From the NCBI GenBank assembly GCA_022360775.1, contig JAKSCD010000434.1, positions 1 through 35,208 of the forward strand: a DNA stretch of 35,208 nt, written 5' to 3'. The notes below the pieces were generated by a model that saw only the letters and a list, made by a program, of their open reading frames with translations, was not told where the DNA came from and made no database searches. The position numbers and the translations under genes were made by a program. Below are positions 12,161 to 19,992 of this stretch, one piece after another. Source of the stretch: Sneathiellales bacterium. Lineage in GTDB: Bacteria > Pseudomonadota > Alphaproteobacteria > Sneathiellales > Sneathiellaceae. Every line of letters begins with the position of its first letter. Positions within the stretch are counted from its first letter, which is position 1.

Positions 12161-13594
12161 TTAAGAGGCAGTGCCCCCAACTGTCAGTCCTCCCAGCAGC
12201 ATGGTCGGCTGCCCAACACCAACAGGTACGCTTTGACCTGCTTTGCCGCAGGTCCCTATGCCGCTATCAAGCGCCATGTCATTCCCGATAGCTTTCACAT
12301 GTTTAAGGGCTTCACTACCCGTTCCGATCAATGTCGCCCCTTTTACCGGTGCAGTCAGTTTGCCATCTTCTATAAGATAGGCTTCGGTGCAGGAGAACAC
12401 AAATTTTCCCGAGGTAATGTCAACCTGTCCGCCGCCAAAATTGATGGTATAGAGGCCTTTTTTCACGGATGAAATGATTTCGTCCGGTTCTTTGTCGCCG
12501 CCGAGCATATAGGTGTTCGTCATACGTGGCATTGGCATATGGGCGAAGCTTTCCCTGCGTCCGTTTCCAGTGGGCTCAACCCCCATAAGCCGTGCATTCT
12601 GGCGATCCTGCATATATCCTACAAGAATACCATCTTCAATCAATGTCGTGGATGAGGAGGCGGTTCCTTCGTCATCAACGCTGAGCGAGCCCCGGCGATC
12701 CGGAATTGTTCCGTCATCAACAACAGTCACGCCTGGCGCCGCAACGCGCTCTCCGATAAGTCCTGAAAAAACGGATGTCTGCTTTCGATTGAAATCTCCT
12801 TCAAGGCCGTGTCCAACGGCTTCATGTAAAATAATACCTGGCCAGCCGGGACCAACGATGACATCCATTTCACCTGCAGGCGCATCTACAGCATCCAGAT
12901 TAACAACGGCCTGGCGCAAGGCTTCATCCACAGCCTCTTGCCAGGTCTGTTCTTCCAGGTAAAAGTCATACCCTGTGCGCCCGCCCATTCCGTGACTGCC
13001 GGTTTCCCGGCGACCATTTTGTTCGACCACGACAGAAACATTTAATCGGACAAGAGGGCGGATATCGCCGCTTCTCTCGCCGCCAGCACGGATAATTTCT
13101 ATTCCCTGCCAGGAGCCTGCGAGAGAGGTTGAAACCTGGACTACCCGGCTATCTCGGGACCGTGCATAGGCATCAATTTCACCCAGAGTTTTGACTTTTG
13201 CATCAAAAGGAATGTTCTGCAGTGGATTTTCATCTGTATAAAGCGACCGGTTCGCCCCTGCAGGAGCAAGTGCAACAGTACCCTGATGCCCTTTTGTTAC
13301 CGCTTTCACCGTCTCTGCGGCATTGTTGATCGCCTGTTCATTCAATTCTGAAGCATGGGCAAAGCCCGTCGCTTCGCCGCTGACAGCACGAAGTCCAAAG
13401 CCGGTAGTGGTATCAAAACTTGCGCTTTTCAGTCGGCCATCGTCAAAAGAGAATCCTTCCGACTGCCGGTATTCAAGGAATAACTCTCCATCATCGGCGC
13501 CATTTAGAGAGTTCGAAACGATTTTCTCGACGGCTTGTCGATCCATATCCGTTCCCTCAAAGAAAAGTTTGTTGGCTGTTTTGATGTCAGTCAC
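12161..13594 (-). CDS. tldD: Metalloprotease TldD
   Basis: TldD is the zinc-bearing subunit of the TldD/TldE (PmbA) peptidase, which degrades unfolded peptides and processes modified peptides in E. coli. The 477-residue length is normal. The zinc motif HEAVGH is at residues 257-262, inside GPGWPGIILHEAVGHGLEGDF. The Cys region CGKAGQSVPVGVGQP near residue 449 matches the third ligand described for E. coli TldD. ATG 13594 gives a complete N-terminal domain. No tldE/pmbA gene is in the window. The gene is divergent from the cox operon across 484 nt, and a heme-protein gene follows 4 nt after its stop, so the two are probably co-transcribed. Confidence 0.95.
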   Translation of the reverse strand: MTDIKTANKLFFEGTDMDRQAVEKIVSNSLNGADDGELFLEYRQSEGFSFDDGRLKSASFDTTTGFGLRAVSGEATGFAHASELNEQAINNAAETVKAVTKGHQGTVALAPAGANRSLYTDENPLQNIPFDAKVKTLGEIDAYARSRDSRVVQVSTSLAGSWQGIEIIRAGGERSGDIRPLVRLNVSVVVEQNGRRETGSHGMGGRTGYDFYLEEQTWQEAVDEALRQAVVNLDAVDAPAGEMDVIVGPGWPGIILHEAVGHGLEGDFNRKQTSVFSGLIGERVAAPGVTVVDDGTIPDRRGSLSVDDEGTASSSTTLIEDGILVGYMQDRQNARLMGVEPTGNGRRESFAHMPMPRMTNTYMLGGDKEPDEIISSVKKGLYTINFGGGQVDITSGKFVFSCTEAYLIEDGKLTAPVKGATLIGTGSEALKHVKAIGNDMALDSGIGTCGKAGQSVPVGVGQPTMLLGGLTVGGTAS

Positions 13595-13813: not shown

Positions 13814-13904
13814 AACTTATTGTTTTTGTTTGTTTTGAGCGGTCTTGATCAGAGGCTTTTATTATTAGGTATCAGGCATAAAAAGCTTTTGAAGGAGGAG
13901 AGGC

Positions 13905-13931
13905 TTGTTCAATTTGCAACGGATGGTGTAG
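13905..13931 (+). CDS. Possible 8-residue leader ORF
   Basis: The sequence AAGGAGG (13892-13898) lies 6 nt before a TTG that opens an eight-residue reading frame (MFNLQRMV, stop TAG 13929-13931). This is one of the best Shine-Dalgarno matches in the window, yet no long frame follows it. It would be transcribed only from the upstream promoter P1. It could be a leader peptide or a chance purine run. No function is claimed. Confidence 0.2.
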   Translation: MFNLQRMV

Positions 13932-13944
13932 GTTCCGCTCCAAA

Positions 13945-13958
13945 TTGATCTGAATCAT
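13945..13958. promoter_or_regulatory. FNR-type box 1 upstream of coxB
   Basis: TTGAT-CTGA-ATCAT matches the FNR/FixK-class consensus TTGAT-N4-ATCAA at nine of ten positions. Its centre is exactly 16 bp upstream of the centre of the perfect second box. Relative to the predicted start of promoter P2 it sits near -44. Confidence 0.55.
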
Positions 13959-13960
13959 TT

Positions 13961-13974
13961 TTGATTTGCATCAA
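13961..13974. promoter_or_regulatory. FNR-type box 2 (perfect consensus) overlapping the cox -35
   Basis: TTGAT-TTGC-ATCAA is a perfect match to the FNR/FnrL/FixK-class half-site pair. Its left half is also the -35 hexamer TTGATT of promoter P2. A protein bound here would cover the promoter, so repression is the simplest prediction. That would fit an aa3-type low-affinity oxidase being turned down when oxygen is low. Confidence 0.65.
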
Positions 13975-13989
13975 TAGACTGGCTATAAA
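13961..13989 (+). promoter_or_regulatory. Candidate proximal cox promoter P2
   Basis: The -35 TTGATT (13961-13966) and -10 TATAAA (13984-13989) have an ideal 17-bp spacer. The predicted start is near 13996, about 83 nt before the coxB ATG. FNR-type box 2 overlaps the -35. Confidence 0.5.
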
Positions 13990-14078: not shown

Positions 14079-14930
14079 ATGATGGCTATGGTTAAGAATG
14101 TTGTCGCCCTGTTTGCTGCTGCCGCAGCGACGGTGTTGACAATGGGGAATGCCATTGCAGCTCAAGGACAGGCTGCTCCATGGCAACTCGGGCTTCAGGA
14201 TGCTTTTTCTCCTGTCGCTCATGACATGCATGACTTTCACAATTTGTTGTTGGTCATTATCACTGCAATTTCAGTCTTTGTTTTATTGCTGTTGATTTAT
14301 GTAGTGGTTCGCTTTAACCGCAAAGCCAACCCTAACCCTTCCAAAACATCACATAACACCCTGATCGAAATCGTCTGGACGGTCGTGCCGATTATGGTTT
14401 TGATCGCAATTGCGGTTCCTTCCTTCAACCTGCTTTACAAAGGTGATCGGATCGAGAACGCGGACATGACCCTGAAAGCGATCGGTTATCAGTGGTACTG
14501 GGGTTATGAATATGTGGACGAAGACGAGCTCGCTTTTGAAGCTGTAATGCTTGAGGATGATGAGCTTGAAGAAGGCCAGCCAAGGCTTCTGGCAACAGAT
14601 AACGTTATCGTTCTTCCGATTGATACAAATATCCGTCTGCTCGTGACAGCAGAAGATGTTTTGCATTCCTGGGCCATGCCAGCATTCGGCGTGAAGCTTG
14701 ATGCCGTTCCCGGCCGTCTCAACGAAACCTGGATGCGAATTGAAAAAGAAGGCATGTATTACGGACAGTGTTCTGAACTGTGCGGTGCACGCCATGGCTT
14801 CATGCCGATCGCTGTCAAAGCGGTCAGCAAGGAAGACTATAAAAAATGGCTTGTAGAAGCCAAAAAAGAATTCGCCAGCGCAGGTGATCCAGCCACTAAA
14901 ATGGCTGATGCATCTGCTGTAACCCAGTAA
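14079..14930 (+). CDS. coxB: Cytochrome c oxidase subunit II (aa3-type)
   Basis: CoxB accepts electrons from cytochrome c through its periplasmic CuA centre and passes them to subunit I. The 283-residue protein has a signal peptide (residues 1-28), two membrane helices (about 56-77 and 96-117) and a C-terminal cupredoxin domain. The CuA ligands are all visible: H196 in DVLHSW, then C231, E233, C235, H239 and M242 in CSELCGARHGFM. The aromatic electron-entry patch GYQWYWGYEY is at 136-145. There is no fused cytochrome c domain, so a separate or membrane-bound cytochrome c is needed. GGGA lies 5 nt before ATG 14079; a second ATG follows immediately. It is the first gene of the cox operon, with coxA 22 nt downstream. 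Confidence 0.97.
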   Translation: MMAMVKNVVALFAAAAATVLTMGNAIAAQGQAAPWQLGLQDAFSPVAHDMHDFHNLLLVIITAISVFVLLLLIYVVVRFNRKANPNPSKTSHNTLIEIVWTVVPIMVLIAIAVPSFNLLYKGDRIENADMTLKAIGYQWYWGYEYVDEDELAFEAVMLEDDELEEGQPRLLATDNVIVLPIDTNIRLLVTAEDVLHSWAMPAFGVKLDAVPGRLNETWMRIEKEGMYYGQCSELCGARHGFMPIAVKAVSKEDYKKWLVEAKKEFASAGDPATKMADASAVTQ

Positions 14931-14937
14931 TCCCTAG

Positions 14938-16557
<1,620 letters not shown>

Positions 16558-16571
16558 GAACGGAGTCTCTT

Positions 16572-17486
16572 GTGTCTGACACAAGCATGATCGGTAACGC
16601 TACCCGCGCCGCAGAACCTGTCGCGCGGGCCAGCGATTACTTTGCTCTTCTCAAACCACGTGTCATGTCCCTGGTTGTCTTTACCGGCCTTGTCGGTATG
16701 GCAGTTGCCCCAGGGTCTCTGCATCCGGTTCTATCTTTCACCGCTTTGCTTTGCATTGCGATCGGTGCGGGCGCGTCCGGTGCCATTAACATGTGGTATG
16801 ATGCGGATATCGACCAGATTATGGAGCGGACAAAAAACCGTCCTGTACCCTCTGGTCGGGTAACTGCAAATGAGGCTTTGGCTGTTGGAGTGACACTTTC
16901 GGTTGCTTCCGTGTTGATGATGGGGCTGGTGATTAATTATGTCGCGGCTATCCTGCTGGCGGTTACAATCGGGTTCTATATCTTCGTTTACACCATGTGG
17001 CTGAAACGCCGGACACCGCAGAATATTGTGATCGGCGGGGCTGCCGGTGCTTTTCCTCCCATGATCGGGTGGGCTGCTGTTACTGGTGATATCAGTGTTG
17101 AATCTGTTGTTCTGTTTGCCATCATCTTCATTTGGACACCGCCTCATTTCTGGGCTTTGTCCCTGTGGCGGGATATCGATTACGCCAATGCCGGTGTACC
17201 GATGCTGCCTGTTGTCGCCGGGCGTGAAGCCACGAGAAGACAGGTCGTATTCTATAGTGTGTTACTGTTTCCTATTGCTGTGATGCCTTATTTCCTGGGA
17301 TATGCAGGGATTTTCTACGGTATTGGTTCAGCAATGCTGGGAGCGGCCTTTTTGTATGGTGCTGTAAAAGTCTGGCTTAAGAAGGATGAGAAAAGTGCGA
17401 AACAGCTTTTTGCATTTTCGCTGCTCTATCTCTTCCTGATCTTTGCCATGCTTCTCGGCGAGAATATCGTTCGGAGCATGTTGTGA
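16572..17486 (+). CDS. ctaB: Protoheme IX farnesyltransferase (heme O synthase)
   Basis: CtaB farnesylates heme b to heme O, the precursor of the heme A used by the oxidase encoded alongside. The 304-residue product is a UbiA-superfamily membrane protein. Its prenyl-binding motif is NMWYDADIDQIMERT (N73, D77, D81) followed by KNRPVPSG. A second signature is YANAGVPMLPVVAG. I chose GTG 16572 because GGAG lies exactly 6 nt upstream; ATG 16587 is a later alternative. About nine hydrophobic helices are visible. The stop overlaps the start of the next small ORF (TGATG), indicating translational coupling within the operon. Confidence 0.96.
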   Translation: MSDTSMIGNATRAAEPVARASDYFALLKPRVMSLVVFTGLVGMAVAPGSLHPVLSFTALLCIAIGAGASGAINMWYDADIDQIMERTKNRPVPSGRVTANEALAVGVTLSVASVLMMGLVINYVAAILLAVTIGFYIFVYTMWLKRRTPQNIVIGGAAGAFPPMIGWAAVTGDISVESVVLFAIIFIWTPPHFWALSLWRDIDYANAGVPMLPVVAGREATRRQVVFYSVLLFPIAVMPYFLGYAGIFYGIGSAMLGAAFLYGAVKVWLKKDEKSAKQLFAFSLLYLFLIFAMLLGENIVRSML

Positions 17487-17608
17487 TGTCAGACGAAGAC
17501 GAGAAGAAAAAGATCAGGACCAGAAATCTCGTTCTGGGTGGTATTCTGTTTGCCCTCGTGATCCTTTTTTATCTCATCACGGTTGTCAAAATGACGGGAG
17601 CTGCCTGA
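17486..17608 (+). CDS. Small single-helix cox operon protein (CoxF-like)
   Basis: This 40-residue ORF fills the gap between ctaB and ctaG. Its ATG overlaps the ctaB stop in TGATG, and its own stop overlaps the ctaG ATG in a second TGATG, so it must be translated as part of the chain. The N-terminus is charged (MSDEDEKKKIRTRN), followed by one membrane helix at about residues 15-34 and a short tail KMTGAA. Short proteins of this charged-then-helix plan (often labelled CoxF or 'cytochrome c oxidase assembly') occupy this exact place in other alphaproteobacterial cox operons. A role in oxidase assembly or stability is inferred from that position. Confidence 0.85.
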   Translation: MSDEDEKKKIRTRNLVLGGILFALVILFYLITVVKMTGAA

Positions 17609-18207
17609 TGGAAGCAAATTCTGCAAGAAAATCATCCAGACTGGCTTTGGTGCTGGTTGGGGTTGCTGTCGGAATGGTCGGCCTCGCCTATGCGTCTGTG
17701 CCGCTTTATGATCTTTTTTGCAGGGTAACCGGTTATGGCGGGACAACGCAGCAGGCCGAAGAAGAATCAGATGTCATCCTGGACCAGGACATTACGGTCA
17801 GTTTTGATGCCAATACAGCGCGCAAGATGCCTTGGGATTTCAAACCGGTTAAAAAGGCAGTGACCTTGAAGATCGGGCAGACCGGAATTGCATATTACGA
17901 AGCGTATAATCCGACAAATCGGACGATCAAGGGGACTGCTTCTTTTAATGTGACGCCTATGAAGGCTGGGCAGTATTTTACCAAGATTGATTGCTTCTGT
18001 TTCACAGAGCAAACACTAAAACCGGGGCAGCGGGTGGATATGCCGGTGACATTTTATGTCGATCCGGAAATCGCCAGTGATCCCAACACAAAAGAAGTGA
18101 AGACAATTACACTTTCTTATACTTTCTTCCCTATGGAAGAAGAGGGGGAGGAAACAGTGTCTTCACTGGACGAGAATGCGGCCGACAAGGCCGTGAGTGC
18201 TAACTGA
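17608..18207 (+). CDS. ctaG: Cytochrome c oxidase copper-assembly protein CtaG (Cox11 family)
   Basis: CtaG/Cox11 delivers copper to the CuB site of subunit I. The start is ATG 17608, not the much longer upstream frame, because it overlaps the preceding stop. This gives 199 residues. One N-terminal membrane anchor (about 11-31) is followed by [18 protein letters not shown], the classic Cox11 block, and then a beta-sandwich domain. The copper motif is C129-F-C131 in [10 protein letters not shown], followed by [18 protein letters not shown]. The acidic C-terminal tail (about 175-199) is variable in the family. coxC follows after 58 nt with its own ribosome site. Confidence 0.96.
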
Positions 18208-18265
18208 TCCACAAAGGATCTTTTTGATAAAGCCGGATGAACCGGCATTATTGCAGGAGTTTAAC

Positions 18266-19078
18266 ATGGCAGATGCACACGCCAAACAACATGATTACCA
18301 TCTGGTAGATCCAAGTCCGTGGCCGGCTTTGGCTTCTCTATCCGCATTTGTGACGGCAATTGGAGCTGTAATGTGGATGCATGACAGCGGCTATGCTGTT
18401 TTCACCATCGGTATGATCCTCCTTCTTTATACAGCTTTCGTCTGGTGGCGGGATGTTGTGAAGGAAGGGGAACATCAGGGACATCACACACCTGTTGTTC
18501 AGCTCGGCCTCCGTTATGGCATGATCATGTTCATCGCTTCAGAGGTGATGTTCTTTGTTGCCTGGTTCTGGGCCTATTTCGCAGCCGCGTTTTTCCCAGG
18601 TGAAGCGCTTGGAAACCAGTGGCCACCAGAAGGTATCGTGGTTTTTGATCCATGGGGTCTGCCTTTCGTAAACACCCTGATCCTGTTGACGTCCGGTACA
18701 ACAGTGACCTGGGCGCATCACGCCCTGCAACATGGAGATCGTAAAGGCCTGGTTCAGGGTCTTGTCCTGACAGTTATCCTCGGGGCAGTTTTCTCTGTTG
18801 TTCAAGGATATGAATACTCACATGCTGCCTTTGGATTTACCGACGGCATTTACGCCTCAACATTCTATATGGCGACAGGCTTCCATGGTGCACATGTCCT
18901 GATCGGAACCATCTTCCTGCTGGTGTGTCTGATCCGTGCGACCAAAGGTCATTTCACACCAAATCATCACTTCGGTTTTGAAGCGGCAGCCTGGTACTGG
19001 CACTTTGTTGATGTTGTCTGGTTGTTCCTCTTCGGTGCGATTTACTGGTGGGGATCATTTGTTCGCATTGTCGAATAA
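18266..19078 (+). CDS. coxC: Cytochrome c oxidase subunit III
   Basis: Subunit III stabilises the oxidase core and supports proton uptake. The ATG at 18266 has GGAG 6 nt upstream, and the product begins [20 protein letters not shown], the conserved subunit III opening. A longer frame upstream lacks support. The 270 residues contain seven hydrophobic helices. The conserved acidic helix [15 protein letters not shown] and the C-terminal block [16 protein letters not shown] are clear. It is the last gene of the operon, and a strong hairpin terminator begins about 70 nt after the stop. Confidence 0.97.
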
Positions 19079-19275: not shown

Positions 19276-19992
19276 ATGAAAAAATTTGCACCGGGCTTCT
19301 GGCCCACCGTCATGACTATTCCCGCAGTCCTTATTCTTCTGTCTTTAAGCTTTTGGCAGCTGAACCGGTATAACTGGAAAGTGGATCTTATCGACCGGCT
19401 GGAAAGCCGATTGGCAGAGGCTGCTGTTCCCATGCCGGAGGGAAAGATCGATCCTGAAGAATGGGCACATCGCCGGGTATCGATTGAAGGTGAGTTTGAT
19501 CATAGCCAGGAAATTCATCTTTTCAGTCATGCTGAAAAAGGAAGAAAGGGATTTCAAATCATAACGCCTTTTACGCGATCTAACGGCGCTGGCGTTCTTC
19601 TGGTTAATCGCGGCTTTGTCCCTGAAGACCGTAAAGAAGTCAAATATCGTAAAGAAGGGCAAATAACAGGGCCGCAAGCGTTAAGCGGTATTATTCGTAA
19701 GCCCTGGACTAAGAGCTATGACTTTTTGCCAGATAACAATGCGAATACAAATGTCTGGCTTTATGGTGACCTTGATCAAATGGCGGCGCATCTAAATCTG
19801 GAGGTCGCTCCTGTCTTTGTTGAACTGGATGATTTGCCGGTTCCCGGCAGGTTTCCACTTGGTGGTCAGACCCGGGTAAGCATTCCCAATAATCACATCG
19901 AATACTTCTTTACCTGGCTTTCGCTCGCCGCGGCAATGATGGCTATTTACGGTCTTTACGGTATCTCAAAAGCAAAGAAAAACGCGCAATGA
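19276..19992 (+). CDS. SURF1 family cytochrome oxidase assembly protein
   Basis: SURF1 proteins help insert heme A into subunit I. The 238-residue product has the family plan: an N-terminal helix (about 9-29) ending in FWQLNRYNWK, a periplasmic domain with the blocks VSIEGEFDH and LLVNRGFVP, and a C-terminal helix after the signature IPNNHIEYFFTWLSLA. ATG 19276 has no strong ribosome site. It lies beyond the cox terminator, so it is not simply read through, though functionally it belongs with the operon. Its stop overlaps the next start by 4 nt (ATGA), coupling it to the carboxypeptidase. Confidence 0.94.
   Translation: MKKFAPGFWPTVMTIPAVLILLSLSFWQLNRYNWKVDLIDRLESRLAEAAVPMPEGKIDPEEWAHRRVSIEGEFDHSQEIHLFSHAEKGRKGFQIITPFTRSNGAGVLLVNRGFVPEDRKEVKYRKEGQITGPQALSGIIRKPWTKSYDFLPDNNANTNVWLYGDLDQMAAHLNLEVAPVFVELDDLPVPGRFPLGGQTRVSIPNNHIEYFFTWLSLAAAMMAIYGLYGISKAKKNAQ

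Follow-up and report, generated by a model that had tools for sequence, protein, structure and literature searches.

A predicted, clade-specific FNR operator at the aa3 oxidase promoter of Sneathiella

In Dinoroseobacter shibae, FnrL represses the aa3 oxidase genes ctaCBGE/ctaD (PMC5398030). The coxB locus of Sneathiella resembles this system in its FNR orthologue, alphaproteobacterial host, low-affinity oxidase and putative reciprocal control of the cbb3 oxidase. It differs in that no tandem box over the cta promoter is mentioned in the text consulted (PMC5398030), and in that the predicted Sneathiella operator is visible in the sequence and conserved in one clade. In R. sphaeroides, the FnrL-related protein CrpK binds the coxI region of aa3, with negative regulation (PMC4263372 Table 3). 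As is proposed for Sneathiella, a CRP/FNR-family protein there acts negatively at an aa3 gene, one that belongs to the CrpK/FnrL regulon, but the CrpK ChIP-seq peak is at coxI, not coxB (PMC4263372).

The sites of FNR-repressed promoters in E. coli range from upstream of the -35 to the start site (PMC3688515). As is proposed here for coxB, transcription of ndh and cydAB is lowered anaerobically through FNR boxes that lie over the core promoter or upstream of it, although these sites are at -50.5 (ndh) and -53.5 (cydAB) (PMC3688515). Repression of aa3 is not universal: in Bradyrhizobium, also an alphaproteobacterium, CoxA and CoxB levels stay constant in microoxia (PMC6515984). The site upstream of coxB in Sneathiella appears to be a real, functional-looking, clade-specific predicted FNR operator, of a known type of control and with an uncommon spacing.

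Architecture of the coxB promoter

The window is the whole stretch of DNA that was analysed (35,208 nt), from the draft genome of a marine Sneathiella bacterium (4.26 Mb, 579 contigs). Two FNR-type boxes lie 104-134 nt 5' of the coxB start codon, within a 484-bp gap that separates the divergent tldD from the coxB-coxA-ctaB-ctaG-coxC-SURF1 operon. The features are as follows.

12161..13594, minus strand: tldD, the divergent neighbour that bounds the intergenic region (NF008006, above cutoff)
13904..13936, plus strand: bipartite element CTTGTT-N17-TGTAGGTTCC, 5' of the boxes (rigid spacing; exact or nearly exact in 24/24 aligned genomes)
13945..13958, plus strand: FNR box 1, predicted outer operator, TTGATCTGAATCAT, read as TTGAT-CTGA-ATCAT (centre about -44.5)
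13961..13974, plus strand: FNR box 2, predicted inner operator, TTGATTTGCATCAA, read as TTGAT-TTGC-ATCAA (centre about -28.5; overlaps the -35)
13961..13966, plus strand: -35 hexamer TTGATT (found in 24/24 aligned Sneathiella coxB upstream regions)
13984..13989, plus strand: -10 hexamer TATAAA (with a start predicted around 13996; same spacing kept in most of the 24 species)
14079..14930, plus strand: coxB, cytochrome c oxidase subunit II, first gene of the operon (TIGR02866, above cutoff)
14953..16557, plus strand: coxA/ctaD, cytochrome c oxidase subunit I (TIGR02891, above cutoff)
16572..17486, plus strand: ctaB/cyoE, heme o synthase (TIGR01473, above cutoff)
17443..18207, plus strand: ctaG, cytochrome c oxidase assembly protein (NF003465, above cutoff); the true start is probably downstream of 17443
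18197..19078, plus strand: coxC, subunit III (best matches are subunit III models, below their cutoffs)
19276..19992, plus strand: SURF1-like assembly protein (NF050123, below cutoff)

The centres of the two boxes are 16 bp apart. Box 1 ends 2 bp before the -35 hexamer, while the left half of box 2 is itself the TTGATT of the -35, which is followed after a 17-bp spacer by TATAAA. Box 2 matches TTGAT-N4-ATCAA perfectly and box 1 nearly so, and they are the only sequences in the window that match with 0 or 1 mismatch. The boxes, hexamers, 16-bp distance and 17-bp spacer described in the earlier note are thus correct to the base on direct reading of the sequence. A simple promoter scan does not list the coxB promoter, because it requires the sixth base of the -10 to be T; that almost all of the 24 species retain the promoter is the better evidence for it.

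When 20,000 sequences were simulated with a first-order Markov model of the 484-bp gap between tldD and coxB, the probability of at least one perfect box was 0.003, and that of a perfect box with a box of at most 1 mismatch within 40 bp was 0.0001 (about 1 in 10,000); the 16-bp spacing was seen in none of the 20,000. Ten perfect boxes are found in the 4.26-Mb draft, seven of them intergenic by ORF positions. One of these seven, at L018 (G000:C431, 876-889), is flanked by the gene of a PAS histidine kinase and by pyrB, which encodes aspartate carbamoyltransferase; an aspartate carbamoyltransferase gene is also among the reported targets of CrpK and FnrL in R. sphaeroides (PMC4263372).

The 16-bp pair, with at most 1 mismatch overall, occurs in 8 of 25 Sneathiella genomes and only at coxB, no such pair being found at other loci of the 25. 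No recurring tandem pair was found in 385 alphaproteobacterial genomes, where the only other matches to the pair are seven isolated cases with 1 mismatch, five within long ORFs and none repeated. Given this distribution, a general tandem FNR arrangement was rejected.

Conservation across Sneathiella

The coxB upstream regions of 24 Sneathiella genomes, including that of the window, were aligned, and a tree of CoxB+CoxA divides these genomes into two clades: A (n = 11, with the window) and B (n = 13). Box 1 is present with at most 1 mismatch in 11/11 clade A species. Nine of its ten half-site columns are invariant, compared with 1 of 31 leader columns, and drawing columns at random 200,000 times never gave so high a figure. 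Its half-sites are 98-100% conserved and its N4 centre 82%, in species whose transcribed leaders are essentially randomised (36% pairwise identity), and there are no indels between box 1 and the promoter in this clade. The left half of box 2, which doubles as the -35, is also invariant, but its right half is 78% conserved, no better than background (p ~0.1). This right half is exact in 4 of the 11 clade A species, has one change in another 4 and at least two changes in 3 (L026, L030 and L032), in which the inner box is degraded. Strong selection thus acts on the outer box, imperfect as it is, rather than on the perfect box that overlaps the -35, which reverses the emphasis of the earlier note.

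Box 1 is absent from clade B (0/13), where box 2 is perfect in G023 only and 1 mismatch off in two others. The core promoter TTTTGATT-N17-TATAAA is nevertheless retained almost throughout the 24 genomes, including this box-less sister clade, so the boxes are, judging from the alignment, not genus-wide. A lack of the boxes in close relatives, which the earlier note gave as a ground for refutation, is not what the alignment shows: they are conserved within clade A, the outer one most strictly, and lacking in clade B.

In two species, L044 and L026, the -10 has changed beyond recognition (CCCGGA-like and TCTTGA), but the -35 and the upstream element are retained, and another promoter may serve there. 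The element itself, at 13904..13936, may bind an activator or act as a second promoter. Copies with 0 mismatches are found upstream of coxB only, and CTTGTT-N17-TGTAGTTTCC resembles no motif that we recognise. As a regulon-wide motif it was rejected, since exact copies are confined to coxB and weaker matches are no commoner than those of a reversed control.

The FNR regulator and its boxes at ccoN

The presence of an FNR-family regulator in the genome, on which the earlier note depended, is confirmed. The encoded protein carries Pfam HTH_Crp_2 and cNMP_binding domains, C-X2-C-X7-C with a fourth cysteine, and an E-TVSR recognition helix (GLTIETVSR in G000). Its gene lies directly upstream of a 449-aa ORF, taken to be hemN, and then ccoN, and this fnr-hemN-ccoN cluster is shared by most congeners. 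Of 25 Sneathiella genomes searched, 24 gave a match to FNR, the exception being a genome that is 56% complete. All four cysteines are present in each of 20 Sneathiella FNRs examined, with the fourth 99 residues past the first, and the E-x2-SR helix is found in most congeners; for a few, the printed match is another E..SR segment. FNR is found in clade B too, so that a genome with the regulator need not have the box at coxB. The predicted operator was, it seems, either lost in clade B or never acquired there, while the FNR sensor was kept.

An FNR-like box is present in 19/19 ccoN upstream regions examined. Across these loci (L221-L240) it reads TTGAC-N4-RTCAA in clade A, as against TTGAT-N4-ATCAA in clade B; the FNR recognition helix is the same in both clades despite this difference, and coxB of clade A uses TTGAT. 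Most clade B ccoN regions have TA 22 nt past the end of the box, placing the box centre 28.5 bp from the -10. A class II site, centred at -41.5, was taken to have its centre some 28.5-29.5 bp from where the -10 begins, and most clade B ccoN boxes accordingly have the geometry of predicted class II activation.

Direction of control and rival explanations

With a probability of about 0.7, the best reading is clade-specific repression of aa3 by FNR, acting on a promoter that does not itself depend on FNR. At coxB, we infer the binding of FNR, the direction of control and its dependence on oxygen. A [4Fe-4S] FNR dimer would form at low oxygen and bind mainly box 1 (about -44.5), with or instead of box 2 (about -28.5). 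From box 1 such a dimer would extend into the -35, and from box 2 it would cover it; RNA polymerase would be denied the -35 region in consequence, and transcription of aa3 would fall. The same FNR, from a class II box, would switch on the high-affinity cbb3 oxidase. Two features of the promoter bear on this reading. The distance from box centre to -10 is 32.5 bp for box 1 and 16.5 bp for box 2, compared with 28.5 bp at clade B ccoN, which puts both cox boxes out of register for class II activation. The core promoter would also work without FNR, since TTGATT-N17-TATAAA persists in the box-less sister clade. Repression by occlusion is the simplest reading of this geometry. The interpretation in the earlier note is thus supported in part: the repression at low oxygen that it proposed is in keeping with the geometry and with the precedents at other aa3 genes, but would apply to clade A only.

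Class II activation from either coxB box was rejected on the 32.5-bp and 16.5-bp distances, the transcription start itself being predicted only. A wider definition tells against repression: E. coli class II sites were counted as -41.5 +/- 4 by Myers et al. (PMC3688515), a window that would admit box 1 at -44.5, and the box kept by selection is the one nearer -41.5. Because of this window, some probability stays with an arrangement in which box 1, as a class II-like site, would serve FNR to activate coxB when oxygen is moderately low, and box 2 to repress it once FNR is fully active. Expression would then peak at intermediate oxygen, an outcome that resembles E. coli cydAB. The unbroken distance between box 1 and the promoter in clade A would suit such a role as well. 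However, compared with the clade B ccoN boxes, box 1 sits another 4 bp away from the -10 and in poor helical phase, the -35 is a decent one, and the promoter is kept box-less in the sister clade, so that this biphasic control is improbable. It is slightly less probable that the ligand is a different CRP/FNR protein, with a signal other than oxygen through FNR: either a CRP paralogue or a protein of the L002 type, which has an E-x2-SR helix and may respond to NO or redox state. G000 does encode further CRP/FNR paralogues, one with an EVISR helix. Close orthologues of L002 occur in only six genomes, however, and are missing from complete or near-complete clade A genomes that keep box 1 (G009, G011 and G019), in all of which FNR is found. 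This distribution makes FNR the better candidate from the sequence comparison; L002 was rejected as the ligand, as its occurrence does not track box 1. It is very unlikely that the core promoter alone is functional and that the palindromes merely reflect AT-rich sequence which happens to surround a conserved -35. This would account for box 2, whose left half is the -35 and whose right half is conserved no better than background, but not for box 1, which lies outside the hexamers and still has nearly all its half-site columns invariant, around a centre that varies, in 11 species with randomised leaders.

Under the preferred reading of FNR repression, the part played by the pair is a separate matter. 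Dimers 16 bp apart would be about 1.5 helical turns from one another, and the footprint of a CRP/FNR dimer is about 22-25 bp; at this distance footprints would overlap, which makes joint binding uncertain. Simultaneous binding of two FNR dimers on near-opposite faces of the helix, as a compact complex that would cooperatively repress at the -35, is regarded as unlikely. The spacing is all that speaks for the sharp switch which the earlier note suggested for tandem dimers, and the inner box is not strictly kept. Box 2 may instead be easily gained and lost, the TTGATT of the -35 being already an FNR half-site. We know of no FNR-repressed promoter of E. coli with a pair at 16-bp spacing, and no description of a tandem FNR operator of this geometry was found in the literature; nor was a closer precedent found in that on Sneathiella respiration or on promoters with two FNR boxes.

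The physiology, in which a low-affinity oxidase would be turned off and a high-affinity one turned on, is as expected. The locus also shows how a -35 of sequence TTGATT supplies one half of an FNR box from the outset. Sneathiella offers a natural experiment: one genus with a conserved oxidase promoter and a conserved oxygen sensor, and with the predicted operator in one clade only. The contrast between the clades allows a direct test of how a housekeeping oxidase enters or escapes oxygen control.
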